Positions 28,201 to 59,610 of a DNA stretch of 64,000 nucleotides are shown in pieces. The notes beneath the pieces were generated by a model that saw nothing but the letters and a program-made list of their open reading frames with translations, did not search any database and had not been told where the DNA came from. The stretch comes from Tridacna crocea (Eukaryota > Mollusca > Bivalvia > Cardiida > Cardiidae): NCBI GenBank assembly GCA_943736015.1, contig OX031058.1:1503001-1567000 (forward strand), written 5' to 3'. Every line of letters starts with the position of its first letter. Within the stretch, counting starts at the first letter, position 1. Made by a program: the position numbers and the translations under genes.

Positions 28201-29722
28201 TTAAGTTACAGAAAGTGTGCTTCAAGGACCAATAGAAACATTTCAGGCTAAACACCATTAAGGCTGAAATCATTTGGAAACTGTCAGAAAGTCTATTAGA
28301 TAACGTAAACAGCATGGAATTTGGATCGTTTCAGAAACAATACGTCTTAAACCAGTATTGCCGGAAATTATTGCAAAACTCGTTGCGATGACAGGAACTT
28401 TATTAGATTTGACTTCACAACCAGTTTTGCAATAAAACCGAGAATTGCAATAAACTCATTATATGGACCATACTTGATCGTTTTCTGGTCAAAACCAAAT
28501 TGAAATACAATTTAATGTTAAATAGGACTATGTAAGACCGAAATTAAGTTTCAGAAAGTGTGCTTCAAGGACCAATAGAAACATTTCAGGCTAAACACTA
28601 TTAAGGCTGAAATCATTTGGAAACTGTCAGAAAGTCTATTAGATGACGTAAACAGCATTGAATTTGGATCGTTTCAGAAACAATACGTCTTTAACCAGTA
28701 TTGCAGGAAATTATTGCAAAACTCGTTGCGATGACAGGAACTTTATTAGATTTGACTTCACAACCAGTTTTGCAATAAAAACGAGAATTGCAACAAACTC
28801 ATTATATGGACCATACTTAATCGTTTTCTAGTCAAAACCAATTTCAAATACAATTTAATGTTAAATGGGACTATGTAAGACCCAAATTAAGATACACAAA
28901 GTGTGCTTCAAGGACCAATAGAAACATTTCAGGCTAAACACTATTCAGGCTGAAATCATTTGGAAACAGTCAGAAAGTCTATTACATGACGTAAACAGCA
29001 TGGAATTTGGATCGTTTCAGAAACAATACGTCTTTAACCAGTATTGCAGGAAATTATTGCAAAACTCGTTGCGATGACAGGAACTTTATTAGATTTGACT
29101 TCACAACCAGTTTTGCAATAAAAACGAGAATTGCAATAAAGTCATTCTATGGACCGTACTTGATCGTTTTCTGATCAAAACCAACTTCAAATACAATTTA
29201 ATGTTAAAGGGGACTATGTAAGATCCAAATTAAGATACAGAAAGTTTGCTTTAAAGACCAATAGGAACATTTCAGGCTAAACACTATTAAAGCTGAAATC
29301 ATTTAGAAACTTTCAGAAAGTCTCATAGTTGACGTAAACAGCATGGAATTGGAATCGGTTCAGAAATAATACGTCTTAAACTAGTATTAAAGGAAATTAT
29401 TGCAAAACTCGTTGCGATGACAGGAACTTTATTAGATTTGACTTCACAACCAGTTTTGCAATAAAACCGAGAATTGCAATAAACTCATTATATGGACCAT
29501 ACTTGATCGTTTTCTAGTCAAAACCAATTTCAAATACAATTTAATGTTAAATGGGACTATGTAAGACCCAAATTAAGTTACAGAAAGTGTGCTTCAAGGA
29601 CCAATAGAAACATTTCAGGCTAAACACTATTCAGGCTGAAATCATTAGAAAACTGTCATAAAGTCTATTAGATTACGTAAACAGCATGGAATTTGGATCG
29701 TTTCAGAAACAATATGTCTTAG
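25238..29722 (+). repeat. Satellite array, forward arm, 343 bp monomer
   Basis: The word TATTGCAGGA recurs at 25,611, 25,955, 26,298 and 26,641 and onward, giving a 343-344 bp period. Monomers carry GAAATTATTGCAAAACTCGT and ACCAGTTTTGCAATAAAA, so each contains an internal inverted pair (TTTTGCAATAA/TTATTGCAAAA). Units differ by only a few percent by eye. Open frames within the array are by-products of the repeat. Confidence 0.9.
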
Positions 29723-32700
29723 AAGACTTAAAGCGTTTCAGAAACGATCTAAATTTCATGCTGTTTATGTCGTCTAATAGACTTTATGACAGTTTCAAGA
29801 TAATTTCAGCCATTATAGTGTTTAGCCTGAAATGTTCCTATTGGTGTTTGAAGCACACTTTCTGTAACTTAATTTAGGTCTTACATAGTCCCATTTAACA
29901 TTAACTTATACTTAAAGTTGGTTTTGATTAGAAAAAAATCAAATATGGTCCATATAATGAAATTATTGCAATTCTCGGTTTTATTGCAAAACTGGTTGTG
30001 AAGTCAAATCTAATAAAGTTCCTGTCATCGCAACGAGTTTTGCAATAATTTCCTGCAATACTGGTTTAAGATGTATTGTTTCTGAACCGATCCAAATTTC
30101 TTGCTGTTTACTTCATCTAATAGACTTTCTGACAGTTTCCAAATGATTTCAGCCTTAATAGTGTTTAGCCTGAAATGTTTTTATTGGTCCTTGAAGCACA
30201 CTTTCTGTAACTTAATTTGGGTCTTACATAGTCCCATTTAACATTAAATTGTATTTGAAATTGGTTTTGACTAGAAAACGATCAAGTATGGTCCATATAA
30301 TGAGTTTATTGCAATTCTCGTTTTTATTGCAAAACTGGTTGTGAAGTCAAATCTAATAAAGTTCCTGTCATCGCAACGAGTTTTGCAATAATTTCCTGCA
30401 ATACTGGTTAAAGACGTATTGCTTCTGAAACGATCCAAATTCCATGCTGTTTACGTCATCTAATAGACTTTCTGACAGTTTCCAAATGATTTCAACCTTA
30501 ATAGTGTTTAGCCTGAAATGTTCCTATTGGTCTTTGAAGCACACTTTCTGTAACTTAATTTGGGCATACATAGTCCCATTTAACATTAAATTGTATTTCA
30601 ATTTGGTTTTTACCAGGAAACGATCAAGTATGGTCCATATAATGAGTTTATTGCAATTCTCGGTTTTATTGCAAAACTGGTTGTGAAGTGAAATGTAATA
30701 AAGTTCCTGTCATCGCAACGAGTTTTGCAATAATTTCCGGCAATACTGGTTTAAGACGTATTGTTTCTGAAACGATCCAAATTCCATGCTGTTTACGTTA
30801 TCTAATAGACTTTCTGACAGTTTCCAAATGATTTCAGCCTTAATGGTGTTTAGCCTGAAATGTTTCTATTGGTCCTTGAAGCACACTTTCTGTAACTTAA
30901 TTTGGGTCTTACATAGTCCCCTTTAACATTAAATTGTATTTGAAGTTGGTTTTGACCAGAAAACGATCAAGTATGGTCCATATAATGAGTTTATTGCAAT
31001 TCTCGGTTTTATTGCAAAACTGGTTGTGAAGTGAAATGTAATAGAGTTCCTGTCATCGCAACGAGATTTGCAATAATTTTCTGCAATACTGGTTTAAGAC
31101 GTATTATTTCTGAAACGATCCAAGTTCCATGCTGTTTACATCATCTAATAGACTTTCTGACAGTTTCCAATGATTTCAGCCTTAATGGTGTTTAGCCTGA
31201 AATGTTTATTTTGGTCCTTGAAGCACACTTTCTGTAACTTAATTTGGGTCTTACATAGTCCCATTTAACATTAAATTGTATTTAAAATTGGTTTTGACTA
31301 GAAAACGATCAAGTATTGTCCATATAATGAGTTTATTGCAATTCTCGATTTAATTGCAAAACTGGTTGTGAAGTGAAATGTAATAAAGTTCCTGTCATCG
31401 CAACGAGTTTTGCAATAATTTCCTGCAATACTGGTTTAAGACGTATTATTTCTGAAACAATCCAAATTCCATGCTGTTTACGTCATCTAATAGACTTTCT
31501 GACAGTTTCCAAATGATTTCAGCCTTAATAGTGTTTAGCCTGAAATGTTTCTATTGGTCCTTGAAGCACACTTTCTGTAACTTAATTTGGGTCTTACATA
31601 GTCCCATTTAACATTAAATTGTATTTGAAATTGGTTTTGACTAGAAAACGATCAAGTATGATCCATATAATGAGTTTGTTGCAATTCTCGTTTTTATTGC
31701 AAAACTGGTTGTGAAGTCAAATCTAATAAAGTTCCTGTCATCGCAACGAGTTTTGCAATAATTTCCTGCAATACTGGTTAAAGACATATTGTTTCTGAAA
31801 CGATCCAAATTCCATGCTGTTTACGTCATGTAATAGACTTTCTGACAGTTTCCAAATGATTTCAGCCTTAATAGTGTTTAGCCTGAAATGATCCTATTGG
31901 TCTTTAAAGCACACTTTCTGTATCTTAATTTGGGTCTTACATAGTCCCCTTTAACATTAAATTGTATTTCAGTTTGGTTTTGACCAGGAAACGATCAAGT
32001 ATGGTCCATATAATGAGTTTATTGCAATTCTCGGTTTTATTGCAAAACTGGTTGTGAAGTCAAATCTAATAAAGTTCCTGTCATCGCAACGAGTTTTGCA
32101 ATAATTTCCTGCAATACTGGTTTAAGACATTTTATTTCTGAACCGATCCAAATTTCATGCTGTTTACGTCATCTAATAGACTTTCTGACATTTTCCAAAT
32201 GATTTCAGCGTTAATAGTGTTTATCCTGAAATGTTCCTATTGGTCTTTGAGACACACTTTCTGTAACTTAATTTGGGTCTTACATAGTCCCATTTAACAT
32301 TAAATTGTATTTGAAGTTGGTTTTGACTAGAAGACGATCAAGTATGGTCCATATAATGAGTTTATTGCAATTCTCGTTTTTATTGCAAAACTGGTTGTGA
32401 AGTCAAATCTAATAAAGTTCCTGTCATCGCAACGAGTTTTGCAATAATTTCCTTCAATACTAGTTTAAGACGTATTGTTTCTGAACTGATTCCAATTCCA
32501 TGCTGTTTACGTCAACTAATTGACTTTCTTAAAGTTTCTAAATGATTTCAGCTTTAATAGAGTTTAGCCTGAAATGTTCCTATTGGTCTTTAAAGGAAAC
32601 TTTCTGTATCGTAATTTGGGTCTTACATAGTCCCCTTTAACATTAAATTGTATTTGAAGTTGGTTTTGACCAGAAAACGATCAAGTATGGTCCATATAAT

Positions 32701-35311
32701 GAGTTTATTGCAATTCTCGGTTTTATTGCAAAACTGGTTGTGAAGTGAAATGTAATAGAGTTCCTGTCATCGCAACGAGATTTGCAATAATTTCCTGCAA
32801 TACTGGTTTAAGACGTATTATTTCTGAAACGATCCAAATTCCATGCTGTTTACATCATCTAATAGACTTTCTGACAGTTTCCAATGATTTCAGCCTTAAT
32901 GGTGTTAAGCCTGAAATGTTTCTTTTGGTCCTTGAAGCACACTTTCTGTAACTTAATTTGGGTCTTACATAGTCCCATTTAACATTAAATTGTATTTGAA
33001 ATTGGTTTTGACTAGAAAACGATCAAGTATGATCCATATAATGAGTTTGTTGCAATTCTCGTTTTTATTGCAAAACTGGTTGTGAAGTCAAATCTAATAA
33101 AGTTCCTGTCATCGCAACGAGTTTTGCAATAATTTCCTGCAATACTGGTTAAAGACGTATTGTTTCTGAAACGATCTAAATTCCATGCTGTTTACGTTAT
33201 GTAATAGACTTTCTGACAGTTTCCAAATTATTTTAGCGTTAATAGTGTTTAGCCTGAAATGATCCTATTGGTCTTTAAAGCACACTTTCTGTATCTTAAT
33301 TTGGGTCTTACATAGTCCCCTTTAACATTAAATTGTATTTCAATTTGGTTTTGACCAGAAAACGATCAAGTATGGTCCATATAATGAGTTTGTTGCAATT
33401 CTCATTTTTATTGCAAAACTGGTTGTGAAGTCAAATCTAATAAAGTTCCTGTCATCGCAACGAGTTTTGCAATAATTTCCTGCAATACTGGTTTAAGACA
33501 TATTGTTTCTGAACCGATCCAAATTTCATGCTGTTTACGTCATCTAATAGACTTTCTGACATTTTTCCAAATGATTTCAGCGTTAATAGTGTTTATCCTG
33601 AAATGTTCCTATTGGTCTTTGAGGCACACTTTCTGTAACCTAATTTGGGTCTTACATAGTCCCATTTAATATTAAATTGTATTTGAAGTTGGTTTTGACT
33701 AGAAAACGATCAAGTATGGTCCTGGGTCTTACATAGTCCCATTTAATATTAAATTGTATTTGAAGTTGGTTTTGACTAGAAAACGATCAAGTATGGTCCA
33801 TATAATGAGTTTATTGCAATTCTCGTTTTTATTGCAAAACTGGTTGTGAAGTCAAATCTAATAAAGTTCCTGTCATCGCAACGAGTTTTGCAATAATTTC
33901 CTGCAATACTGGTTAAACTCGTATTGTTTCTGAAACGATCCAAATTTCATGCTGTTTAGGTCAACTATGAGAGTTTCTGACAGTTTCCAAATGATTTCAG
34001 CCTTAATAGTGTTTAGCCTGAAATGTTCCTATTGGGTCTTTGAAGCACACTTTCTGTAACTTAATTTCGATCTTACTTAGTCCCATTTAACATTAAATTG
34101 TATTTGAAATTGGTTTTGACTAGAAAACGATCAAGTATGGTCCATATAATGAGTTTGTTGCAATTCTCGTTTTTATTGCAAAACTGGTTGTGAAGTCAAA
34201 TCTAATAAAGTTCCTGTCATCGCAACGAGTTTTGCAATAATTTCCTGCAATACTGGTTTAAGACGTATTATTTCTGAAACGATCCAAATTCCATGCTGTT
34301 TACGTCATCTAATAGACTTTCTGACCGTTTCCAAATGATTTCAGCCTTAATAGTGTTTAGCCTGAAATGTTTCTATTGGTCCTTGAAGCACACTTTCTGT
34401 AACTTAATTTGGGTCTTACATAGTCCCCTTTAACATTAAATTGTATTTCAATTTGGTTTTGACCAGAAAACGATCAAGTATGGTCCATATAATGAGTTTG
34501 TTGCAATTCTCGTTTTTATTGCAAAACTGGTTGTGAAGTCAAATCTAATAAAGTTCCTGTCATCGCAACGAGTTTTGCAATAATTTCCTGCAATACCAGT
34601 TTAAGACATATTGTTTCTGAAACGATCCAAATTTCATGCTGTTTACGTCATGTATTAGACTTTCTGACAGTTTCCAAATGATTTCAGCCTTAATAGTGTT
34701 TAGCCTGAAATGTTTCTATTGGTCTTTGAAGCACACTTTCTGTAACTTAATTTAGGTCTTACATAGTCCCATTTAACATTAAATTGTATTTGAAGTTTGT
34801 ATCGACTAGAAAACGGCCAAATATGGACCATATAATGAGTTTATTGCAACTCTCGTTTTTATTGCAAAACTGGTTGTGAAGTCAAATCTAATAAAGTTCC
34901 TGTCATCGCAACGAGTTTTGCAATAATTTCCTGCAATACTGGTTTAAGACATATTGTTTCTGAAACGATCCAAATTTCATGCTGTTTACGTCATCTAATA
35001 AACTTTATGACCGTTTCCAAATGATTTCAGTCTTAATAGTGTTTAGCCTGAAATGTTTCTATTGGTCTTTGAAGCACACTTTCTGTAACTTAATTTGGGT
35101 CTTACATAGTCCCATTTAACATTAAATTGTATTTCAATTTGGTTTTGACTAGAAAAGGATGAAGTATGGTCCATATAATGAGTTTATTGCAATTCTCGTT
35201 TTTATTGCAAAACTGGTTGTGAAGTCAAATGTAATAAAGTTCCTGTCATCGCAACGAGTTTTGCAATAATTTATTGCAATTCTCGTTTTTATTGCAAAAC
35301 TGGTTGCTACA
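29723..35311 (-). repeat. Satellite array, reverse arm, 343 bp monomer
   Basis: The same monomer in opposite orientation for about 16 units. The switch occurs in ATGTCTTAGAAGACTTAAAG around 29,710-29,732, itself a short palindrome. The two arms together could fold into a stem of more than 4 kb. A 77 bp internal duplication lies at 33,646-33,799. Confidence 0.9.
33646..33799 (-). repeat. 77 bp direct duplication within one monomer
   Basis: TGGGTCTTACATAGTCCCAT starts at 33,646 and again at 33,723, and the two 77 bp copies are identical as read, including a rare AATATT variant. The identity shows a recent local slip rather than an ancestral monomer feature. Confidence 0.85.
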
Positions 35312-47915: not shown

Positions 47916-48467
47916 TTACATAGTATTTTTTTCTAAATATTTTTTTCTTAATCTATCATAAGAAGGACAGATACAAATGAAATGAAACACGTCTTCAATA
48001 TCATTTGTGTTACAACACTGACAAATGCGTTCATTTCTTGGAATCTTATTTCTGCCATAGCGGCCTGTTTGAATTCTTAAAGAGTGTGAAGACAGTCTCA
48101 TTCTCGTTAAGTAAAATCTGTAATTATTTGGTAAAATGTCTAAGTATGGTTCATATCCGAAATGGTTTTTAAAGTGCTTATACTCTTCCAATGCAGCGCT
48201 AGATGCTATTGATCTATACCAGTCCTGTATAAAACAGTCGATAACTCTTTGTTTAAATACACGCGGAAACTTCTCTAAATATATGGGGTTCGGATTGTAA
48301 AAAACATGATTGAAACCATAATTGTCTAATAAATTTTTGACTCTGTGCACCCAATTCTTGTAGCCATGATTGCAATCTTCTAAATTTAATTTATAAACGT
48401 TACTTAAAATAATATTATTAGAAGAAACCACCTTACACCAATAATTAATTATCCTGTAGTAGCGCAT
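47916..48467 (-). pseudogene. LINE ORF2 C-terminal region
   Basis: Continuation of the LINE polyprotein after the reverse transcriptase. It ends with a zinc-knuckle-like ICQCCNTNDIEDVFHFICIC (C-x2-C...H...C), usual at the end of several LINE ORF2 proteins, preceded by RLSSHSLRIQTGRYGR. It is out of frame with 48,488-48,997, so one frameshift lies near 48,470-48,487. Confidence 0.7.
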
Positions 48468-48487
48468 TACATAAAGAGGGTACCGTG

Positions 48488-48997
48488 CTAATTCACCATA
48501 TACACTTGCGGAACAAGTACTGGAAGGATCCTTTTACAAAATCGTAAATGAACAAGCTCAATACCTTTTGCTTTGGAAAATCCCCACAGCTCGCACGCGT
48601 AACTTAAGATTGACCCAACAAAGGAATCAAATAATTGGCAGAGACTTTTTGGTTTGAGCGGGTATTTGTTATAATTTTTTAAAAGAACATTAACAGCTTT
48701 TAATCCTTTACCAACTAGATATTCATTGTTACCCGAAAATGAACCGTTAAACGATAGAACTGTACCTAAATAATTAAACTGGTCCACGATATCTAAAACA
48801 TTGCCGTCGTAGAACCACTTTTCGGTATCGTGTATGTGACCCCTTTTTCTTATGACCATGATCTTTGTTTTGGTAGAGTTGACTTCAAGTCCCCACAAAT
48901 TGCAATAATCAAGTAAGGAATCGAGAGAATTTTGTAGATCACGTGGACTTTCGCCAAATAATATCATGTCATCAGCAAATAGGAGCAACATTATATA
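48488..48997 (-). pseudogene. LINE reverse transcriptase, catalytic FADD segment
   Basis: LLLFADDMILFGESPRDLQN carries the catalytic FADD motif. WGLEVNSTKTKIMVIRKRG and the FNYLGTVLSFNGSF thumb motifs follow. The sequence up to about position 49,009 beyond the junction belongs to the inserted element, not to the protein. The upstream part of the palm domain is at 59,971-60,187 and 63,392-64,000. Confidence 0.8.
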
Positions 48998-49000
48998 GAG

Positions 49001-49161
49001 GATAATCAACTGGTTATTTTTGATATGAAAAATATCTCACGAGGATGCGTCGTAAGGCGTTGAAAAAACGAGTGCGAAGCACGAGTAGCACTCGTTTTTT
49101 CAACGCCTTACGACGCATCCTCGTGAGATATTTTTCATATCAAAAATAACCAGTTGATTAT
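49001..49161. repeat. 75 bp-arm palindrome at the left end of the foldback element
   Basis: Bases 49,001-49,075 pair with 49,088-49,161 with one or two discrepancies and a 12-base loop. The outer word is GATAATCAACTGGTTATTTT. A diverged relative is at 59,611-59,800. Confidence 0.9.
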
Positions 49162-50147
49162 TCTATTTATTATATACCTTATTAACATTATCATTTTTAT
49201 TTTTTCGTTCGAAAGTCGAAATCAATACTTTGGACAGAGAGAAGAAATCGAGGACATAGTGCGGATAAATACATAATTTAAAAGAACAAAACGAGACTTC
49301 ACAAAACAAAAGAAGTCGCCATTTTTTTTTTTTTTCAGTTGAAGCGGATAAGTTGTGCTTTTTCTTTTTGTGTATTCCGTGCCATAAATACGTAATGGAT
49401 ATGTGGATTTATTTAAAAGTGAATATTTTGAGATTCTCATCACTGCAGGTAGCTTTGTATGCAATGACATTCGGTGTGAATCGTGATTTCATCGTGGAAA
49501 TGACTTGACCAGTGGCAATTTCAATCAGCTGATTTGGAAGATTCCGGGAGGGGGAAACGGACAGTTTCAGTGGTCAAGATGAAGCACAATTTTGTAAAAA
49601 TAGGAATAGCAATTTCTTTAACTTTACCACTGATTTGGTTAAAGTAAAACGACAGTAAATAAATGCTTTAACTTTTAATTATCCGTTTCAGTTAACATGG
49701 AACATGTATGCGTCTCATTCTAAAAATAGCACATTAACATGTGTAGAGCGACAGTTCAAGGACGGTTTTAGCAGAGTGCACATTGTTCATCTATTCGATA
49801 CATGTGTTTTGTGATCATGGGTGAAATTATTATGTAACTAGTAAGTGCTTTAGTTTACGGAATATACTTCAAGTTCAATTTGGATTTATTCACTGTCGGA
49901 GGATGACGACTCAAGAGGTAAGATTCTTCTGTACTTTTTTTTGAGCTTTCGCTTTTACTAAAAGTTTTAGGACACATGAAAGGACAAAGAATGGAAGGAA
50001 AGGAAAAGCTCAAAGGAAAACAGTCTTTTGCAGATTTTAAAACATTTAGTTGTATATACATTGGTAAACGATGCATGTTTTAAAACCTGTGCATCGATTA
50101 CTGGGGAAATATAACTATTTGTTGAGCCATCAGACTTCGGATCGGAT

Positions 50148-50368
50148 TAAAGTGTGCCGAGTTATTATTTTGGGGCGTTACCTGTCCTTTAGTGGTGTAA
50201 ATACTTGCGAAGGTGCTAACTTCAGTATTTCTTTAGCTTCTGACTTCGTGGACGTCCACACAGTAGATTGTCAGGTGAGAGAGTGAACAAAGAGAAATAC
50301 TGGTTCCCTATTTTAATTTTACCCGCCACTCTGGTTTTCCAGTGACACTGGTACCCAGCGTCACTACA
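50148..50368 (-). repeat. Gypsy 3' LTR
   Basis: 221 bp. Read on the minus strand it starts TGTAGTGACGCTGG and ends at GGCACACTTTA. The purine tract GGAGAAAGTCGGGGGGAG (50,369-50,386) abuts its inner side. Confidence 0.85.
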
Positions 50369-50839
50369 CTCCCCCCGACTTTCTCCAAGAAGGCTTCGGC
50401 GGTAGCTGACGGAATCCATATTTGGGGGGTTACTCCCAAAGTGGAGTGGAAACCTTTCCCTAGGTCACAACTCAAATACCCGGGGCTAGAAGCCGCTGAA
50501 ATTTGCCCCTTAAGTGGGCTAGAAGCCGCACGAGAACTTTAAAGCTAGAAGCGTTTGGGTTAGTAGGCTAGAAGCCGCACAAGACCCTTAAAGCTAGCAG
50601 CTTTTGAATAAGTGGGCTAGAAGCCGCACAAACACTGGAAAACAACAACCTAGACTGAAACTAGTAAAAGAGAAAGGAGCTAGAAGCTCTTTTTCACTGG
50701 GCTAGAAGCCGCAGAGAAAATCTGGTCAATCTCCCTAGTTTCCTTGGCGTATCATACGACAACACACTAACTTATCCTGGGTTACAGACCAGTACTTTAG
50801 TAAGTATAGGAGAGAATTCCTCCACCAGAATGCAACTGG

Positions 50840-51151
50840 CTAAAAGCCAAACTGAGAAGACAGCATCCGGCCCAGCCACAGGGAGACAATAATAGCCTCG
50901 TATTGCAGCCGGTCTTCCCGCCACCACTCCAAGGCCTCAACCTGATCTAGACTAAAAGCCCTGATCGTGTTGGTGAAGCCTAAGAAGGAATTGGGAAACT
51001 CCTTCAGCCATCCATCTACCACACACTGGTTTCCGGTGAAGCAGTGTGGATGGATCCTTTGGCGAGGCCTAACATACCTCCGCGTAAAACGCAGAAGTTT
51101 GAGAAAAGCCTCAATTCCGCAGTCCTCATCCACTTTTGTGCAATGCAACAC
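50840..51151 (-). CDS. Possible small accessory ORF in the gypsy 3' region
   Basis: A 103-codon frame between pol and the 3' LTR, without an ATG at its start, encodes a protein-like sequence (KVDEDCGIEAFLKLLRFTRR, later FSLDQVEALEWWREDRLQYE). No signal peptide or fusion motif suggests an envelope. It could be an accessory protein reached by splicing, or chance in a long untranslated region. Confidence 0.25.
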   Translation of the reverse strand: MLHCTKVDEDCGIEAFLKLLRFTRRYVRPRQRIHPHCFTGNQCVVDGWLKEFPNSFLGFTNTIRAFSLDQVEALEWWREDRLQYEAIIVSLWLGRMLSSQFGF

Positions 51152-51684
51152 CTGAACTTGCCACTTTCAGCAAGGGCATAACTCTCTCCAGCAACACTAG
51201 TCAACCGTACGTGAGGACGTCCTAGTCAACCCGTGCTACTGAGTGCGTCGCAGCTACACCAAGTCAGCGGGCTCTTAGGGGAGCTAGAAGCCCCAGCCAT
51301 AGAGGCCGACTTACTTGCAAACACCTGAAGTTTGCGGGCTCTTCGGGGAGCTAGAAGCCCCAGCCTTAGAGGCCGACTTATAACTTCTGTTTTATTAGCT
51401 TGTTTTCTTCTTACCTCCCCCCCTCCCCCTTTTTGGAGCCGCCTCTCCGGGGGCCCTCCCCGGGCTGGAGACAGTGGGACTAAACCCGACTGGAGTGAAA
51501 GGTAAAAAGTTCCGACGGAGCGGGCTAATCTTTTGGCAAGGCCTTGACCTGGCTGAAGGATAGGCTAGAAGCCACATCCTTGGATACACCTACACAGAAA
51601 GACAGGCTAGAAGCCGCATCTTCCTATCCTGTAGGTTACCCTGGAGTCGGAGATAATTTGCTGATGTTTTATACTGACAAATAA

Positions 51685-54600
51685 TCAGTATGCTACATCC
51701 ACAGTTCCTCCACTCTTGCAGGCCTTACACTTATATTTGTCAATAGTCAATGCATCTGAAACACTGATATTGACGCATGAACCATGGAACCACTCATCAC
51801 AATAGTCACACTGTATCATGAAGCGACCATTCCAGGGCTGGCGACACAAGCAATACTTGGTGCTTTCCTCACTGTCAGGAATGATTGCTGAATCCTGAGG
51901 TGGGGATTTGTGCTTTGTGATCCAATTTGGGAGAGTCCTATCCCTACAGGGCATTAGCCTGTCATGGTTCACTACGAACACAGACTTATGGAGCTTCACA
52001 CGGTATACGTATGAAGACAGTTTCTTTATTATTATGGCTGGTCCCTTCCAAGGAGATGACAGTTTTCTGGACTGTCCCTTACTAACTGCTGTATCTAATA
52101 GATACACAACATCTCCTTCTGCGTATGGCCGTAAAAGAATTTTTAGATCATAATTCTTTTTCATGCGCTTCAGCGAAGTTTTCAGATTCTGGCGAGCGGT
52201 GTCATGAGCCGATTGCATGTTTTTAACCAGGTCATTGACATACTCGCCATAATCCACAGACTGACTTTTGGGACAAGGGAACATCAAATTTGCTGGTGTA
52301 TTGACCTCCCGTCCCAACATCAATCTATTCGGGGTAAAACCCGTACTTCTGTTGACTGAAGCCCTTATTGCCAAAGCTATTTGCTGGAGGTACTTGTCCC
52401 ATTGATCCTGTTTTTTACCTAAAAAGCATCGGACAGCATCCATTAAAGTACGATTAAATCGTTCTACCTGTCCGTTGGCTGCAGGTCGATAAGGAGTGGT
52501 TCTAGCCTTATGGATCTGCAAAGCTTTGCATAAAGCTTCAAAAAGTTTTCCGTCAAAGTTCCTGCCTTGATCGGAGAAAATCTGTAGTGGTAGACCAAAA
52601 CGCGAAAAAAAGTTATCAATGGCCGCCTGAGCCGTTTCCTCCGCGCGCTGAGAAGGCAAAGGGACACATTCAACCCATTTCGTAAACTGGTCCACCATCA
52701 TTAGGCAGTGAACATTACCAAGCTTTGTTTTAGGTAAAGGACCAATAAAATCTATATGTACCCGCTCCATAGGTACCCCAGCTTGAAATTCTGTTAATGG
52801 GACCTTTCCATAAGCCTTGTTCTTTTTGCTCTGGTTACAGACATTGCAAGATAGCACATAGGACTCCACATCCTTTGACATACGAAACCAGAAAAACTTT
52901 TCTTTGAGTTTTGCCTTTGTCCTAGCGACACCCTGATGCCCCGCTGAGGGTATATCATGGTGCAAGGACAAGACAGACTCTTTAAGACTTTCGGGGACGA
53001 CTAGAAGCCAGTCACCCATGTCTTCATCTGGTTTTTGTCTGTATAAGACACCATCTATAAGTTTGAACAACTCTTTATCCAGCCAGTAACTTTTTGCCCC
53101 AACGCTGGCAATAAACAAATCTTTTTCAGCTGGTTCTTCCTTTTTCTCGATCCAAGCTAGAAGCATGGCGAGATTTTTGTCTTTATGTTGCTCGTCTCGC
53201 AGTTCACCGAGTGAATAGCCCCAGCACGTTCTTGTGGTGGTCCTGGTAGCCAAATCACTCAGGGAGACGGTGCAACACCCTATTTTGCTCAAACTTCTTT
53301 CCTTACGGAAAGTTATGTCAAAGTGTGCTTCTGTACTACCTAACCCGTCAATGTCTCCAGAACCAATGACGTCTAGAAGACGGTCATTGCCTGTAAATAT
53401 GACTGCGTCTAGAAGACGGCGGTCTTTACAGGGAGCGTCGTCTGTCGGCTGGTCTAGAAGACCCGAGCCTAGACTGCTCTTTATGCCTGGATGCTGCCCT
53501 GAATGGTCTAGAAGACCCGATTCAGTCTGCAGCTCTTTAGCAGTACAAGATCTTTCTAAAAAAATCTGGCGGACTCCCACTGACCTGGCCTCGCCCCTTC
53601 TTGCACCTACCATTTTTCGGTTAACCTCTGTCGGAGGTGCCTTCCCTTCCTGCACGACCAGACTAACAGCCTCGTCCACCTCGTCAGTGAACTTAGCCCA
53701 CTGGGTATGCGCCCTCGTGCAGTAATGGCATCCTCCGCATGGTAGGTCCGCAAGCTTGATGCCAGAAATGTACTTTAAGCATGGACTTAAAGGATCTGGG
53801 ATCCCTGAAAGTGCATCCGCATTTCCATGCTTTGATCCTTCTCGATGTTTGACCACCATGTGGTATTGAGAAAGTTCCTCAATCCATCGAGCTAGCTGGC
53901 CCTGTGGTTCTTTGAACCTTAATAACCAGGTAAAACTGGAGTGGTCTGTCCTTACTGTAAAGATCTTACCAAGCAGATAGAACCTAAACTGTCTAGTAAA
54001 CCTCACAATGGCCAACAACTCCCTCCGGGTGGTGCAATAATTCTGTTGCTCAGGAGTCAGAGAAAAACTGCTAAAAGCAATCACCTTCTCAACCCCATTC
54101 TGCAACTGAATCAACTCAGCGCCTATGGCAAACTGAGATGCATCCACATCCAAAATGAAGGTATCATTGACGTTCGGTAAAGCTAGAACAGGTGGACTTG
54201 TAAGTACTGCTTTTAACTTTTCAAAAGCACCCTGATGCTCTTCACCCCATGTAAAGGGTTTTCCCCCTGCCAGTTTGTACAGAGGACGAGCGATCTCTGC
54301 AAAATCTTTTACGAACATTTTATGGTAATTAGCTAACCCCAGAAACCGTTCGACATCTTTAGAATTTTTGGGCGTTGGCCAATTTCTAACAGTTTCTGTA
54401 TCCTTCTCTGTCATGGATAAAGAGTTTCCACTTACAGATCTGCCCAGAAACTCCACTTCATTTTGAAAGAAGAGGCATTTCTTAGGCTTCAGCTTCATAC
54501 CATGTGTTCTGAATCTATCCAGGACTTGACATAGATTTTGCAAGTGCTCTTCAAAAGTTTTTCCCATTACAAGAATGTCATCTAAAAAGGCAAGCACAAT

Positions 54601-55641
54601 CTTCCAGGTCAGCCCCTTCAGTATGAAGTTGACAACCCGGGAGAACGTGGCGGGTGCATTGGTCAGACCAAAACCCATCTTTAAGTGTTCAAAGAGTCCG
54701 AACTTGGTAAGAAAAGCTGTTTCCTTACGATCTTCCTCCTTGACCTTAACTTGCCAATAAGCAGAATTTGCATCTAGTTTAGAAAACCAGATGTTTCCTG
54801 CCAGCGTGTCAAGACAATCTTCAACTAGTGGTAATGGGAATGTGTCTTTCACTGTGACGTCATTCAAAGCTCCGTAGTCTATGCACCACCGAACTGAGCC
54901 ATCTCTTTTCCTGATTAAAACAGGAGAAGAAGCCCATTCAGACACAGATTCCTGAATGACGCCTGCATCCAACATTTTCTTCAGGTGAGCTTCTTCCTCA
55001 TCAACAAAACACGCAGGTGTTCTACGCATTCTTTGTTTGATAGGCTTAGCGTCACCTGTATCAATTGCATGCTCTATAGCTGTGAATTGACCAAGGTCAA
55101 ACTCACTTTGAGCAAAGACATCGGCATAGCTACGTAGAACGCCAGCTACTTTCGATTCCTGCTCTGCATTAAGGTGCGTTCTGGATGCCTCAAACACACC
55201 TTGCAAATGCAATGGTAATTCCACAGCTATATTACTCTCACCTTTGTGGCTAGAAGCCACAAGATTCACTGATCCGTGACCCTGGGGTTTTCTCGTTGAG
55301 CTAGAAGCCGCAAAGGGCCTAAACCCCTTACTGAATACAGTTGGGCTAGAAGCCGCAACTGACTTTGACATATGGCGTAAATTAGTTGGGCTAGAAGCCG
55401 CAGCAGACCTTATTCCATGATTATGTATTGTTGGGCTAGAAGCCGCAACACTACTAGACCCTGATATGGAAGATTGGCTAGAAGCCATTCTTTCATCTGC
55501 ACTGTGCATGTCCCCTAAAACAGTGTCAATTTCGTGTGCATTCGCAATAATTTCATTCTTTTTCAATGTTTTGAAATTATCGGTGGGGTTAACCAGACAG
55601 ATGATCGGTCTATCACCGGCAGATCTGACAATGCAAGGCAT
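51685..55641 (-). CDS. pol: Gypsy Pol: reverse transcriptase, RNase H, integrase, PHD finger
   Basis: The longest open frame, 1,318 codons from its first ATG; the frame itself opens at 55,695 after a UAG. Residues 50-135 are a serine/alanine-rich linker with repeated AASSP. The reverse transcriptase spans about 200-420, with WFSKLDANSAYWQV and the catalytic FLDD at 352-355. RNase H spans about 490-615 (ILDVDAS, RREL, TDHSS). The linker at 640-800 contains repeated LLD words written by the hairpin family. Integrase has an HHCC-type zinc region (GHQG, SCNVC) and a D964, D1024, E1060 triad, then a GPY/F-like region. Residues about 1,261-1,318 form a C4HC3 PHD finger (YCLCRQPWNGRFMIQCDYC, EWFHGSC, KCKAC). 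All catalytic motifs are intact. Confidence 0.93.
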   Translation of the reverse strand: MPCIVRSAGDRPIICLVNPTDNFKTLKKNEIIANAHEIDTVLGDMHSADERMASSQSSISGSSSVAASSPTIHNHGIRSAAASSPTNLRHMSKSVAASSPTVFSKGFRPFAASSSTRKPQGHGSVNLVASSHKGESNIAVELPLHLQGVFEASRTHLNAEQESKVAGVLRSYADVFAQSEFDLGQFTAIEHAIDTGDAKPIKQRMRRTPACFVDEEEAHLKKMLDAGVIQESVSEWASSPVLIRKRDGSVRWCIDYGALNDVTVKDTFPLPLVEDCLDTLAGNIWFSKLDANSAYWQVKVKEEDRKETAFLTKFGLFEHLKMGFGLTNAPATFSRVVNFILKGLTWKIVLAFLDDILVMGKTFEEHLQNLCQVLDRFRTHGMKLKPKKCLFFQNEVEFLGRSVSGNSLSMTEKDTETVRNWPTPKNSKDVERFLGLANYHKMFVKDFAEIARPLYKLAGGKPFTWGEEHQGAFEKLKAVLTSPPVLALPNVNDTFILDVDASQFAIGAELIQLQNGVEKVIAFSSFSLTPEQQNYCTTRRELLAIVRFTRQFRFYLLGKIFTVRTDHSSFTWLLRFKEPQGQLARWIEELSQYHMVVKHREGSKHGNADALSGIPDPLSPCLKYISGIKLADLPCGGCHYCTRAHTQWAKFTDEVDEAVSLVVQEGKAPPTEVNRKMVGARRGEARSVGVRQIFLERSCTAKELQTESGLLDHSGQHPGIKSSLGSGLLDQPTDDAPCKDRRLLDAVIFTGNDRLLDVIGSGDIDGLGSTEAHFDITFRKERSLSKIGCCTVSLSDLATRTTTRTCWGYSLGELRDEQHKDKNLAMLLAWIEKKEEPAEKDLFIASVGAKSYWLDKELFKLIDGVLYRQKPDEDMGDWLLVVPESLKESVLSLHHDIPSAGHQGVARTKAKLKEKFFWFRMSKDVESYVLSCNVCNQSKKNKAYGKVPLTEFQAGVPMERVHIDFIGPLPKTKLGNVHCLMMVDQFTKWVECVPLPSQRAEETAQAAIDNFFSRFGLPLQIFSDQGRNFDGKLFEALCKALQIHKARTTPYRPAANGQVERFNRTLMDAVRCFLGKKQDQWDKYLQQIALAIRASVNRSTGFTPNRLMLGREVNTPANLMFPCPKSQSVDYGEYVNDLVKNMQSAHDTARQNLKTSLKRMKKNYDLKILLRPYAEGDVVYLLDTAVSKGQSRKLSSPWKGPAIIIKKLSSYVYRVKLHKSVFVVNHDRLMPCRDRTLPNWITKHKSPPQDSAIIPDSEESTKYCLCRQPWNGRFMIQCDYCDEWFHGSCVNISVSDALTIDKYKCKACKSGGTVDVAY

Positions 55642-55695
55642 AAGTACCTTTCTTTGGTGTATCAGATCACCAGGTTCTAGATAATAATCACCCAG

Positions 55696-56379
55696 CTAGT
55701 CGTCCAATTTACATGCAACACGAACGACAGAATTGGGAGGGACCACCACCCTTTTTGTCAAAGACACCCTAGCCACAACAGGTTTTTTATCCTGCAAATG
55801 TGTCGTGACAGGGACGCTTTCTCCATTCACCACAAGGGTGTCAGACTTCATATCATGTAAGACACCCAAATGGTGCATGATGTCATGGCCCAACAACATG
55901 TCGTCTGAAATAGGGGCGACATAAAGTCTTTCCCTTATTATCTGGGAGCCAAGACATATCTGCACAGGTTTAACTATGAAACCTGGTAAAATGTTGTCCC
56001 TATCCGCCATCTGCATCACGATATCCTTGATCTTTTTTGGTTTTTGTTTCAAGGTATCGTAAACCTGCTTGGAGAGAATAGAAATTTCTGCTCCCGAGTC
56101 AATCCTAGCCTGAATATCTCTCCCCCCGACTTTCAAATTGATGAAAGAAGAGCCTGCACAAACAATGTGAACCTTAACTGGCTCATCCTTAAAGGTAGGA
56201 GGATTAGGATCAACAATGGTTGCAGTATTACTACTCCCTTTAGTCTGGTTAGAAACCGAGACTGACTCAGAAGTCAGGTTAGAAACCGTGACCTTCGACT
56301 GAGTTTGACCACTTTTAAATATTTCTTTGACAGAGGACGGAGGGGCGTGGTCCTTGACCTCAGTCCTTACCCGTTTAAA
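55696..56379 (-). CDS. Gypsy protease segment, reached by -1 frameshift
   Basis: This frame has no ATG of its own near its start and begins at the slippery site (56,373-56,379). A linker of about 75 codons with two VSN words written by hairpins leads to an aspartic protease: ARIDSGAEISIL holds the DSG catalytic triad and LLGHDIMHHLG is the downstream flap-side motif. It ends at UAG (55,696-55,698), after which the same frame continues into reverse transcriptase. The stop may be a disabling mutation or a readthrough signal; GAC-UAG-CUG resembles the permissive UAG-C contexts only partly. Confidence 0.85.
   Translation of the reverse strand, partial: FKRVRTEVKDHAPPSSVKEIFKSGQTQSKVTVSNLTSESVSVSNQTKGSSNTATIVDPNPPTFKDEPVKVHIVCAGSSFINLKVGGRDIQARIDSGAEISILSKQVYDTLKQKPKKIKDIVMQMADRDNILPGFIVKPVQICLGSQIIRERLYVAPISDDMLLGHDIMHHLGVLHDMKSDTLVVNGESVPVTTHLQDKKPVVARVSLTKRVVVPPNSVVRVACKLDD
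56307..56379 (-). promoter_or_regulatory. Programmed -1 frameshift site with predicted pseudoknot
   Basis: In the gag frame the codons are AAT-TTA-AAC-GGG-TAA, so U-UUA-AAC is the slippery heptamer (56,379-56,373) and gag stops one codon later. Protease lies exactly in the -1 frame. After a 6-base spacer, GGACTGAGG (56,366-56,358) pairs with CCTCCGTCC (56,343-56,335), 8 of 9. GACCAC in the loop (56,352-56,347) is fully complementary to downstream GTGGTC (56,312-56,307), giving an H-type pseudoknot. Heptamer, spacing and knot all match known -1 sites. Confidence 0.85.
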
Positions 56380-58163
56380 TTCTGCTGGTTTTCTTTGTTT
56401 TTCTTCTGTAACCAGGCCTTGTACCTCTTACAATCTTTTTTGTAATGGCCAGCCTTTTTACAGAAGAAACAATGATAACCTGGTTTAGCCTTTCTTTTTT
56501 CTTTGTCCGACTTAATTGCTTCAGCAACGACCTTTTTTACTTCTTCCAGGGTTATCTGATTGACGGACACCTGGTCTGTAGATTTTTTACTTTTTTTCTG
56601 TCCGTCAACAGCCCTGGTAATGTATTGGTGGTGTTTCACCAAATTTAAGGCCTGTTGAATACTTTTAGGGTTTTCAAGGCAAGCATGTTTAGCTGCTTCC
56701 TTGTCCAAACAACCCTGACTAAATCTAGCAACAGCCTCCTGAATTGTGTGACTTTCAGACAAGTCTTTGTAGGCTGAAGTAGCAAGGGACATGACCGTAT
56801 CTGCCCAGTCTTCTAAAGTTTCCTCTGGATGTTGAGAGGCTTGCTGGAAGTTGACTCGAGCAGTTTCAATCAAGTCAATGGAGCCAAACCTACTTTCAAG
56901 TTTTTTGAGCATTTCCTTGAAAGTAAATTCTTCATCCATCCTAAATGTGATGGTGAAGAAGTCTAGAGCCTTTCCTTCTAGACTCCAAGTCAAATAATCC
57001 TTGCATTCCTGCTCTCCCCAGTTAGAAACCGACCTATAGCTCTCGAACATTTTTCTGAACGAGAACCAGCTCGTCTTGCCATTAAAATGTATATTTTTTG
57101 GCAGCAGAGCCGGCTTCCCTCTTTTCAGAATGGCGGGTCTAGAAGACACCTGCCTGTCCGAAGCCATTTCAGGTTTAGGAGAACTGGAATTTGAACTTGA
57201 GGAAGACTCGTCCGGATAGAATCCAGTCGGTCTTCTGTTGACCCTCAACTTCCTGGACTTTTTGCTTGTGCTGGTGAGTCTCGGAATAGGCGGCTGAGCT
57301 AATTTTTCCTTAATGGTACTTGTTTTAGGAACCTGTTTCTCCAGATTCTCGAACTCCTGTGTGAGGGGCTTGAATCCTGGAGGAACACATGGAGCAGCAG
57401 TGTGCACGGAAGATTGTCTAGAAGACATATCCACAGCAGCCACTTGTCTAGAAGACAAGTCAAAAGTTGCCGGCTGCTGTGCCAGCGACTGCTGCAACTC
57501 CAACTGGGTCCTAATTAATTTCTGCAAGTCTTGAATTTGTTTAGCTGTTTGTTCTTGGAGGACTTGCAAAGTTACCATATCCATCTGCGTTTTCAATAGG
57601 CTTTGCCTGGGTGCAGGCAAAGGTGATTTGGGTGGCTGCAGATGGAGAGTTGGTTTAGGCGGAGAAACCAACTTATGTAATTGCTCAGTCTGTGCAGAAT
57701 GTGTAACGGGTTCAAATTTTTGCACAGAAGGTCTACTTTGATGGGGTGGGGTTTGAAAAGTAGCAGCAGTCCTCGGAACTGTTGTCAATTCCGAAAACAT
57801 TTGCCCAAAACCCTGGCTTTTCTTAGTAGGCCGTATATCACTTTGTGACAAAAGCCTACGTAGCTGATCCTCAGTCTCACTTATTTGAGACTCAAGTTCA
57901 GCCCTTTCTGCCTCTAGTGAGGTTAAGGGAGGAAGTGGCAAACTCTTATCTGCCCTTTCTCTCTTAAGTTGTTTTCTGGAAGGAACACTGAAATCTAATT
58001 GATTCCAGGTTTCTTCCTCAACTGCCCCCATCATCATCATGGAGAACGCCATTTTCGTCACCGGACCATACATATCTCTATGGTAGACAATGGCCTCTGC
58101 TCTTTTTTGGCCAATGCCTTTAACGCTGCAGAGTTGGTCAACAGTTGCAGTGTTGATGTTCAT
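56367..58163 (-). CDS. gag: Gypsy Gag with N-terminal helix-hairpin-helix
   Basis: 598 codons from the ATG at 58,163; six in-frame codons upstream lack an ATG. Residues 1-34 (MNINTATVDQLCSVKGIGQK followed by RAEAIVYHRD) form a ComEA-type helix-hairpin-helix, a DNA-binding motif unusual in Gag. A charged coiled coil follows at about 80-112, then a long proline/serine/glutamine-rich region, and a capsid-like domain at about 370-500 (LTWSLEGKALDFF, ETLEDWADTVMSLA). A CCHC zinc knuckle (CFFCKKAGHYKKDC) lies near the C-terminus for RNA binding. Four or more hairpins are written into the coding sequence, several giving SSR peptides. Confidence 0.9.
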   Translation of the reverse strand: MNINTATVDQLCSVKGIGQKRAEAIVYHRDMYGPVTKMAFSMMMMGAVEEETWNQLDFSVPSRKQLKRERADKSLPLPPLTSLEAERAELESQISETEDQLRRLLSQSDIRPTKKSQGFGQMFSELTTVPRTAATFQTPPHQSRPSVQKFEPVTHSAQTEQLHKLVSPPKPTLHLQPPKSPLPAPRQSLLKTQMDMVTLQVLQEQTAKQIQDLQKLIRTQLELQQSLAQQPATFDLSSRQVAAVDMSSRQSSVHTAAPCVPPGFKPLTQEFENLEKQVPKTSTIKEKLAQPPIPRLTSTSKKSRKLRVNRRPTGFYPDESSSSSNSSSPKPEMASDRQVSSRPAILKRGKPALLPKNIHFNGKTSWFSFRKMFESYRSVSNWGEQECKDYLTWSLEGKALDFFTITFRMDEEFTFKEMLKKLESRFGSIDLIETARVNFQQASQHPEETLEDWADTVMSLATSAYKDLSESHTIQEAVARFSQGCLDKEAAKHACLENPKSIQQALNLVKHHQYITRAVDGQKKSKKSTDQVSVNQITLEEVKKVVAEAIKSDKEKRKAKPGYHCFFCKKAGHYKKDCKRYKAWLQKKNKENQQNLNG

Positions 58164-58770
58164 TCTGCTAATTTTTTCCAAAGAGAAATGAATACAGGCA
58201 ATTTTTTGTGTTTAATCAAAAATTAAACAAAATGTAAAACCTGCAAGGAAAAAGCATGCAATTTAAACAACAAAGAAAGCAATAACTTACAGTCAAATTC
58301 AAGTGCTTAGAAAGCGTACCTGAAAATAACAGAAAAACTTTCTAATTGTAAAACAGGTGGGTGGGGTAAGTACTGGCTTTACAGTAAAATGGGCTCTTCC
58401 TGCCTGTAAAGATTAAACTGGCATACCCTAACCTGATTTAAATTAGCCTTTCTTTCTTTTCTGTGTAGACCAAATTTGGAACTGACATGTGAAACCACCT
58501 CGGCTAGAAGCCAATTTAGGTAACACAAGAAAACTGGGACCAAACAAGTAGAACTCAATTTAGTCTTGAAGTCAAAAGTTGTATTGAATGAATAGAACTC
58601 AATTCAATACCCTTATCCACAACAGGTGCCTTGTTTTCAAATTGTTTTCAAGCTAGAAGCCTGAGGGAGTCTTTTTTGGAATTTATAGAAGGCTCGCGAA
58701 AACACAATACCAACAACCAAAAAGACTGGAAACAATCGAAAACGTTCTTGTTTTTAATCCTCGTCGCCAA
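58164..58770 (-). other. Gypsy 5' untranslated leader with primer-binding site
   Basis: About 600 bases between the 5' LTR and gag. TGGCGACGAGGATTAAAAA (58,751-58,769, minus sense) directly follows the LTR and is the likely tRNA primer site; the tRNA is not identified. Two members of the UCU-triloop hairpin family (58,502 and 58,652) lie in this leader, where packaging signals usually reside. Confidence 0.7.
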
Positions 58771-58991
58771 TTAAGTGTGCCGAGTTATTATTTTGGGGCG
58801 ATACCTGTCCTTTAGTGGTGTAAATACTTGCGAAGGTGCTAACTTCAGTATTTCTTTAGCTTCTGACTTCGTGGACGTCCACACAGTAGATTGTCAGGTG
58901 AGAGAGTGAACAAAGAGAAATACTGGTTCCCTATTTTAATTTTACCCGCCACTCTGGTTTCCCAGTGACACTGGTAACCAGCGTCACTACA
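58771..58991 (-). repeat. Gypsy 5' LTR
   Basis: 221 bp, with about four differences from the 3' LTR (for example GGGGCGATACC against GGGGCGTTACC, and CTGGTAACC against CTGGTACCC). This identity indicates a recent insertion. Confidence 0.85.
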
Positions 58992-59610
58992 GGATCAAGA
59001 AAGTTTGGATGGGAGTGGGGATTAAGGAAAATGGAAAAACAGCTGTTTGAAACAGTGAGAGGAAGGAAGGAAAACATATAAACCAAGATGATACTGAAAT
59101 ATAGGTAAGTCTTCTTTATTATGCATTTTTGTTTGGACTTTATGGTTAAATTTCATTTTCAGAGGCTATTTTGTATTGCTTTCATGTTTTGAATGTAAAA
59201 GATAGTTTTATATGATTTTCAATAACAATATCTACTTTCAGAAACATTAAACTGTTGACGGAATTTGGTAAAATTCATATTGCACTTTATTAACTAAAAT
59301 CAATCTGTTTTATGCATTCTTTCAATAAGGTAGACTGAAAATATCATGAGAAAAGGAGAAAATGCATGAAAAAAATATTTGCTCCTTTTCCAAGAATATT
59401 TTTGTAATTTTATTGTATTTTTGTTTAGACTGAGAAAAGTAGTTGGATTATATGGTTGAAAATACAGAACTTACAATTAACTCTATAAGTGCTTGATGAA
59501 AAAAAAAAGTAGTTCCTAAATTACGGCAGGAAGTGAAAGTGAAAGTTGATATCGTCACTAGTGATGATATCAAAATTTATTACACTGGGAAATTCCAGGA
59601 TTTCACTGCT

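Follow-up and report, generated by a model that had tools for sequence, protein, structure and literature searches.

What maintains a long series of small hairpins in a retrotransposon, when their loop is fixed and their stems differ in sequence? This question is raised by a 64,000-nucleotide stretch of the Tridacna crocea genome (contig OX031058.1, positions 1,503,001 to 1,567,000; hereafter the window), which carries one gypsy-type long terminal repeat (LTR) retrotransposon at 50148-58991 on the minus strand. An earlier reading of the sequence (the original prediction) had reported about 30 hairpins in this element, with the triloop AGA on the plus strand, that is, UCU in the sense RNA, and with variable but complementary stems. 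We found 26 perfect hairpins of this type, 33 sites with the core YUUCUAR, and about 35 sites with weaker ones added (Table 1). All 35 loops lie within 50484-58664, as had been claimed, and the stems do covary. The hairpins are real and clade-specific, they are very likely selected structures, and they probably work as sense RNA. We read them as candidate dispersed recognition sites for an RNA-binding protein; the element's own Gag, with a probability of roughly 0.5, is the likeliest one, and the sites may then serve multi-site packaging.

Perfect hairpins with a 4-bp stem and the AGA triloop number 26 in 50141-58995 and three in the remaining 55 kb of the window, and the second most frequent triloop in the element forms six. 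All 26 are in the sense orientation and none in the antisense one, in untranslated and coding sequence, in agreement with the original prediction. Dinucleotide shuffles of the element (n=500) yielded 0.75 UCU hairpins on average and five at most. In the codon-preserving shuffles that had been proposed as a check (n=500), gag, the protease frame and pol yielded 0.34, 0.07 and 0.55 hairpins, compared to 4, 2 and 10 observed. When all 64 triloops were scored by the same scheme, with G-U pairs and one bulge allowed, a score of at least 7 was reached at 16 of 190 UCU positions, whereas all 63 other triloops combined reached it at 11 of 8611.

The coding hairpins are read in two phases. Twelve sites encode SSR, VSN or ASS (gag, the protease start, and the pol N-terminal linker), and six encode LLD, LLA or LLV (between RNase H and the integrase core), while 16 hairpins are untranslated in the window copy, five in its 5' part and eleven in its 3' part. 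With hairpins in two different phases and also outside translated DNA, the constraint does not act on the protein. The hairpins at the pol N-terminus and the four LLD hairpins lie in stretches that are poorly aligned or absent in relatives; hairpins 53161 and 53005 fall within alignable integrase sequence. In another copy, L015, a third open frame takes in part of the 3' region that is untranslated in the window, and this frame itself holds hairpin codons.

Two sites were discarded. Site 54783, in the reverse transcriptase (RT) core, is a conserved RT codon run with a similar fold in a family without hairpins (L032), and site 57220 was doubtful, with a weak outer stem and no YUUCUAR core. The final 35 sites are the 33 core sites minus 54783, plus 58596, 58552 and 55138, which have the same build without the core. 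Site 54783 is still among the 33 rows of the flank permutation and covariation tests. The bulge test used a slightly different set of 35, obtained from the 37 sites examined by omitting 53161 and 50549, where the four inner pairs are incomplete; it includes 57220 and 54783.

In the 33 core sites, the letters UUCUA are invariant. The inner stems fall into a few classes, and the outer stems differ in sequence and yet pair. The stems named in the original prediction are all present: CAGTTG/CAACTG (55344), CAATGA/TCATTG (53371), GTCT/AGAC (56247), GTCA/TGAC (56277), GAAT/ATTC (53506), GGCT/AGCC (53452), and GGAT/ATCC (51563). When the 3' flanks were swapped among the core sites with the inner stem held constant (n=300), the mean folding energy rose from -12.4 to -8.5 kcal/mol (sd 0.41). 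In an ungapped alignment of these sites, 72% of cells are paired, compared to 55% in shuffles, and the covariation score is 0.47 versus 0.21, with none of 500 shuffles as high. The eight outer pairs alone give 0.49 versus 0.21, again with 0/500. The score falls to at most 0.304 when partner columns are slid by 1 to 3, and is 0.34 in the alignment version without the bulge.

The most frequent architecture is a 4-bp stem followed by a single unpaired 5' base and the outer stem. Four inner pairs are present in 35 of the 37 sites examined. The single unpaired base between the stems, also part of the original prediction, was confirmed and belongs to the 5' arm of the sense RNA: three or more outer pairs past one unpaired 5' base were found in 16 of 35 sites, against a permuted mean of 3.3 and a maximum of 10 in 2000 permutations, although several of these sites resemble tandem relatives and hence are not independent. 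An outer stem without the bulge occurs in 4/35 sites (1.35 permuted), and one with a 3' bulge in 1/35 (1.04 permuted). The bulged 5' base is C in eleven sites, U in four, and G in one. In the pol linker, hairpin units spaced by ∼45 nt resemble tandem copies.

All DNA comparisons were made within one host genome of 1.05 Gb and cover a small number of intact families. With up to eight copies projected onto the window at 34 sites, the loop and inner stem vary at 16 of 373 positions and the outer flanks at 77 of 596. Outside the hairpins, 110 of 815 four-fold positions vary, as do 564 of 5997 coding positions overall and 206 of 1433 other noncoding ones. In the loop and inner stem, only 1 of 51 four-fold positions varies (Fisher p 0.015 against the four-fold positions elsewhere), and 9 of 175 noncoding ones (p 0.0004 against the other noncoding positions), both p-values being too sharp, to the detriment of our case, as the copies share ancestry and their independence is overstated. 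The variation profile by position is a valley with the loop at its centre. Hence in these related copies from one genome the motif is conserved beyond the needs of coding, as expected of packaging signals.

Counting changes copy by copy against the window (37 sites) gave a similar picture. The loop and inner stem have no changes at 406 positions in each of L013, L014 and L016, while the other noncoding and coding classes have 1.5 to 2.6%. There are 4/406 changes in L012, 3/396 in L015 (10.2% in noncoding DNA), and 6/165 in L017 (7.7% in coding DNA). In the decayed copy L019, the count is 16/198, compared to 9 to 14% in other classes. In 10 of 11 copies, changes are less frequent at paired positions than at the others (e.g., 1.0 versus 2.5% in L013).

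Some changes point to the RNA as the working form. Hairpins 51611, 51569 and 50572 have G-U as their first outer pair in the window, while some copies carry A-U there and others G-C, a series found with the build of each hairpin chosen over all copies. This is the path expected of a sense RNA. Among stem mismatches with pairs on both sides, G-U outnumbers A-C by 10:6 in the window, 11:3 in L035, 6:2 in L036 and 4:1 in L037; the signal is modest, the window being related to L035, and L036 to L037. A decayed copy, L020, has one T-A to G-T case. Double changes within the copies of the window's family are few, so that compensation is thin.

A number of observations weigh against this reading. In none of the 11 copies do single changes at paired positions keep more pairs than they break, with kept to broken pairs ranging from 3:3 in L013 to 4:14 in L019. 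The share of pairs kept, 0.10-0.50, lies around the chance expectation of 0.26-0.37, which takes base composition and transition bias into account, and gives no sign of compensation. In L021, changes are slightly more frequent at paired positions (12.2%) than elsewhere (10.2%), and the decayed L020 carries an A-C pair at one of the three hairpins with the G-U series. Folding energies of the sense and antisense strands differ little: the sense strand folds better in 18/26 hairpins of the window, 17/27 of L015, and 12/20 of L035, and in just 6/12, 6/11 and 6/8 in the sister family described below. Longer folds of three clusters gave z-scores of -4.9 (extreme), -2.3 (moderate) and -1.4 (weak, the 3' cluster). 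Thus, the original prediction stood in that shuffled sequences fall far short of the observed counts, but not in that related copies should keep their stems paired, as single changes break them about as chance allows. Still, the permutation and covariation tests, the two phases, the loop-centred valley and the A-U/G-U/G-C series uphold a constraint on nucleic-acid structure, as had been proposed. We consider the sense RNA likely to be the working form, at a confidence lowered by the single changes, which preserve pairs no better than chance.

Searches of the host genome with the RT yielded 94 matches at 45-100% identity, and in each class, parts of one or a few copies were read. Family A (the window copy, L012-L016, and L035) has 20-27 hairpins per long copy. 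Its sister family B (L034, L036, and L037; RT 80-84% identical) has 8, 12 and 11 in three copies, the RT-core site counted, while shuffles (n=200) give 0.63-0.78 with a maximum of 3 or 4. In family B, five to seven hairpins lie in the gag linker and the others in the 3' half. The commonest inner stem, GTCT/AGAC, is present in family A too; otherwise the two families differ in their outer stems and in several inner ones. In family B, pairing of the outer stems holds in 48 of 70 cells, versus 30.3 when permuted, with 0/5000 as high (14 sites, the RT-core site omitted and one duplicate context collapsed).

By blastn, the discarded RT-core site is the only family B hairpin falling on a family A site, the gag linkers being too diverged to align, so that a shared site there is possible. 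Seven other families (L032, L033, and L038-L042, one copy each) have 0-3 UCU hairpins, within the range of their own shuffles. The trait is seen in families A and B only, a difference between related families that the original prediction could not take into account, and we read it as clade-specific. The sets of A and B are largely separate, and much of both was probably built after the families parted. A broader claim, that a clade of LTR retrotransposons evolved element-long arrays of Gag-recognition hairpins, built largely separately in sister families around the same UCU loop and missing in related ones, is a tentative one, and we would put it slightly below even.

Because the loop is fixed, the bulge position common, the stems variable and yet paired, the copies many, and the strand one, the hairpins resemble sites at which a protein recognizes RNA. 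Moreover, many stem-loops share a recognition motif along one genomic RNA, as packaging signals do. The element's own Gag has about an even chance of being the reader, and ranks first among the candidates. One protein would read the UCU loop and the unpaired 5' pyrimidine four pairs below it, and the stem sequence would be fairly free provided that pairing holds. Many sites on one genomic RNA could then gather Gag and favour the packaging of that RNA. New sites may originate when existing units are duplicated in tandem, and then be kept by selection, with template switching possibly supplying perfect stems. Direct loop-loop dimerisation is unlikely, as UCU loops cannot kiss each other.

The closest parallel is the phage MS2, where the coat protein recognizes a loop motif together with a bulged base in the 5' arm, features that recur in part in other stem-loops (PMC6281560). 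Like MS2 and packaging signals of RNA viruses as described there, the element has many stem-loops with a common short loop motif in varied surroundings, and an unpaired base in the 5' arm. The motifs differ: a (x)xYA loop with a bulged A in MS2, and UCU with a mostly pyrimidine bulge four pairs apart here. Coat-protein binding is demonstrated for MS2, while our case is an LTR retrotransposon known from its sequence.

The yeast elements Ty1 and Ty3, the latter likewise of gypsy type (Metaviridae), offer another comparison. In the sections of the sources available, the packaging needs of Ty3 are not precisely defined, with untranslated regions and POL involved (PMC11381356), and scattered sites are suggested (PMC4974528, PMC11381356); these sections describe no repeated hairpin family. 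In addition, two points count against packaging by Gag. Ty3 is reported to retrotranspose without most of its internal sequence if proteins are provided in trans (PMC4974528), and hence a related element can manage without such sites. Moreover, we found no Gag domain that is common to families A and B and absent from the other families.

The latter result is compatible with the next candidate, a host RNA-binding protein that would read the hairpins for nuclear exit of unspliced RNA, avoidance of decay, or translation, with Gag uninvolved. The evidence from structure, conservation and strand fits this equally well. However, the seven related families could use a host factor as well, and the copy of each has no hairpins. 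We regard host-protein reading as rather unlikely, though second only to Gag binding.

The original prediction had offered another alternative, selfish palindromic inserts; these would copy themselves within the element. Rickettsia palindromic elements and mitochondrial GC clusters are such palindromic units, also found inside coding sequence; they have a common stem sequence and occur in either orientation. Many of the hairpins here do lie in hypervariable linkers and noncoding parts, some are tandem-like copies in the pol linker, and the inner stems form a few classes. Unlike the known inserts, however, the element's hairpins have a fixed loop and one strand, and their outer stems share no common sequence but covary. 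Conservation of the loop and inner stem even in noncoding DNA also argues against self-copying inserts, as does the large share of the listed triple-core clusters that lies in families A and B. In the genome, GGCTTCTAGCC occurs 611 times, versus 69 for the reversed control, the paired form GTCTTCTAGAC 172 times versus 1, and triple-core clusters 338 times versus 86. Among the 100 cluster places listed (338 counted; read by eye), 91 belong to family A or B, and the remaining nine resemble tandem repeats. Ten loci with a lone GGCTTCTAGCC matched the element neither by blastn nor at the protein level and showed no such hairpin cluster, and single units elsewhere in the genome are indistinguishable from chance. 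We disfavour selfish inserts and consider them improbable.

It is equally improbable that the structure acts in DNA or during reverse transcription, through hairpins of the cDNA, strand switching, or a DNA-binding protein, for example the helix-hairpin-helix of Gag. This domain is indeed present, and template switching is a mutation route that makes or mends perfect RNA stems (PMC8794818). Such a route would account for the origin of stems, but not for the keeping of loop, bulge and strand. The sense-strand intermediates, which are G-U rather than A-C (a modest signal), the strict sense orientation, and loops that cannot kiss one another also speak against an action in DNA. Finally, a by-product of tandem duplication and a serine-rich protein repeat, with palindromy by chance, would agree with the tandem units in the pol linker and with single changes that preserve pairs no more than chance, but we judge it refuted by the synonymous shuffles, the two coding phases, the untranslated copies, and the permutation tests.

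Even in yeast, it is poorly defined how LTR retrotransposons choose their own RNA, and scattered sites are named as likely contributors to this choice in a review from 2016 (PMC4974528). The element offers ∼35 candidate sites with a readable motif, the UCU loop and the 5' bulge, and the presence in one genome of a sister family with its own set and of related families without any makes multi-site RNA recognition directly testable. It may also give a natural history of a recognition code arising in coding sequence. If Gag does read the hairpins, this would be the retroelement equivalent of multi-site packaging in RNA phages, with a gain traceable within one host genome. Among titles and beginnings of abstracts in the open-licence literature, we recognised no published account of such hairpins, and Rfam had no matches in the window at gathering scores.

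Similar hairpins may exist in other elements, and some protein sequences provide a lead. Gag and pol proteins of related elements (P0003, P0005, P0047, and P0160-P0184) have long arrays of GTSSTKT-like repeats; three sequences were inspected, and motifs were counted over the whole protein set. The peptide GTSST is compatible with coding by a GGTACT-TCT-AGTACC hairpin, as judged from proteins alone. For the pol-linker repeats RVVNP (P0007) and GVIDP (P0010), coding by triloop hairpins with different loops is conceivable. In a general test, serine-centred pentapeptides showed no excess (ratio to shuffles 0.78 in pol and 0.36 in gag). Scans of viral contigs and genome contigs yielded no DNA of relatives beyond the host genome. 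Two IMG/VR contigs (from the set L001, L002, and L003) carry tandem GGCTTCTAGCC hairpins, with matching outer stems in L002; no relation to the element was found, the scans being for hairpins only and none being sought.

The element has LTRs around gag and pol and the order protease, RT, RNase H, integrase, typical of Ty3/gypsy (Table 1). In the window copy, an in-frame stop splits the protease from the RT frame, while other copies keep a longer open frame. Named protein relatives include those from Ruditapes, Dreissena, Pinctada, Ostrea, Elysia, and Lingula, mostly molluscs and a brachiopod. The original prediction had implied a bivalve element, by speaking of other bivalve gypsy elements; the named relatives give this indirect support only, and some carry labels of bacterial symbiont assemblies. 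A helix-hairpin-helix (PF12836) starts Gag in the window, L033, L034, L038, and L039, that is, in families with and without hairpins alike; the score in L033 is below the Pfam cut-off, and none is listed for the Gag of L032.

A third open frame 3' of pol was found in L015 (640-2745, minus strand), L032 (7595-9691, plus strand), and L038 (2-2032, minus strand). A TatD-type DNase domain (PF01026) is present in three of the four third frames scanned (L015, L032, and L038), and absent from that of L039; a literature search on a TatD-type third frame gave nothing relevant. L033 has an alignable counterpart of the frame, and L036 has part of one. About 1.1 kb of this region of L015 has no match in the window copy, which has no long frame there.

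Table 1. Coordinates in the window of the genes, repeats and hairpins of the element
Feature	Position	Strand	Remarks
5' LTR	58773..58991	-	98.6% identical to 3' LTR over 219 bp
3' LTR	50148..50368	-	matched to 5' LTR
gag frame	56370..58211	-	N-terminal helix-hairpin-helix, PNMA-type Gag domain
CCHC-like knuckle	in gag frame 56370..58211	-	by eye from translation
Aspartic protease frame	55699..56427	-	
pol frame	51688..55695	-	RT, RNase H, integrase, C-terminal PHD finger
UCU hairpin	58643..58670	-	5' untranslated region
UCU hairpin without YUUCUAR core	58582..58609	-	5' untranslated region, 4 bp + 5' bulge + 9 bp
UCU hairpin without YUUCUAR core	58538..58565	-	5' untranslated region, 4 bp + 5' bulge + 8 bp
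UCU hairpin	58494..58521	-	5' untranslated region
UCU hairpin	58297..58324	-	5' untranslated region
UCU hairpin	57438..57465	-	gag linker, 8-bp continuous stem, SSR phase
UCU hairpin	57408..57435	-	gag linker, SSR phase
UCU hairpin	57129..57156	-	gag linker, SSR phase
UCU hairpin	57012..57039	-	gag, VSN phase
UCU hairpin	56269..56296	-	protease frame start, outer GTCA/TGAC
UCU hairpin	56239..56266	-	protease frame start, outer GTCT/AGAC
UCU hairpin	55468..55495	-	pol N-terminal linker, ASS phase
UCU hairpin	55426..55453	-	pol N-terminal linker, ASS phase, 5' bulge
UCU hairpin	55381..55408	-	pol N-terminal linker, ASS phase
UCU hairpin	55336..55363	-	pol N-terminal linker, outer CAGTTG/CAACTG, 5' bulge
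UCU hairpin	55291..55318	-	pol N-terminal linker, 5' bulge; outer stem longer in L015, L035
UCU hairpin	55240..55267	-	pol N-terminal linker, 8-bp continuous stem
UCU hairpin without core	55124..55151	-	coding, before RT, 5' bulge
UCU hairpin	53498..53525	-	RNase H-integrase linker, LLD phase
UCU hairpin	53444..53471	-	RNase H-integrase linker, LLD phase
UCU hairpin	53399..53426	-	RNase H-integrase linker, LLD phase
UCU hairpin	53363..53390	-	RNase H-integrase linker, LLD phase, outer CAATGA/TCATTG
UCU hairpin	53147..53174	-	before integrase zinc-binding domain, LLA phase
UCU hairpin	52991..53018	-	near integrase zinc-binding domain, LLV phase
UCU hairpin	51597..51624	-	3' region; A-U/G-U/G-C series between copies, pair 5
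UCU hairpin	51555..51582	-	3' region; A-U/G-U/G-C series between copies, pair 5
UCU hairpin GGGGCU-UCU-AGCUCCCC	51341..51368	-	3' region
UCU hairpin GGGGCU-UCU-AGCUCCCC	51274..51301	-	3' region
UCU hairpin	50692..50719	-	3' region, 5' bulge
UCU hairpin	50670..50697	-	3' region
UCU hairpin	50607..50634	-	3' region, 5' bulge
UCU hairpin	50558..50585	-	3' region; A-U/G-U/G-C series between copies, pair 5
UCU hairpin, weak	50535..50562	-	3' region
UCU hairpin	50509..50536	-	3' region, 5' bulge
UCU hairpin	50476..50503	-	3' region, weak outer stem

Other parts of the window also contain repeats. Region 25394-35149 has many copies of CTAGAAAACGATCAAGTATGG and its reverse complement, several of them spaced near 343 bp or multiples of it. 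The copies are oppositely oriented on the two sides, and this is apparently a repeat array with an inversion. In addition, frames at 14124-15479 and 47916-49036 resemble, by eye, a DDE transposase and remnants of a non-LTR reverse transcriptase.

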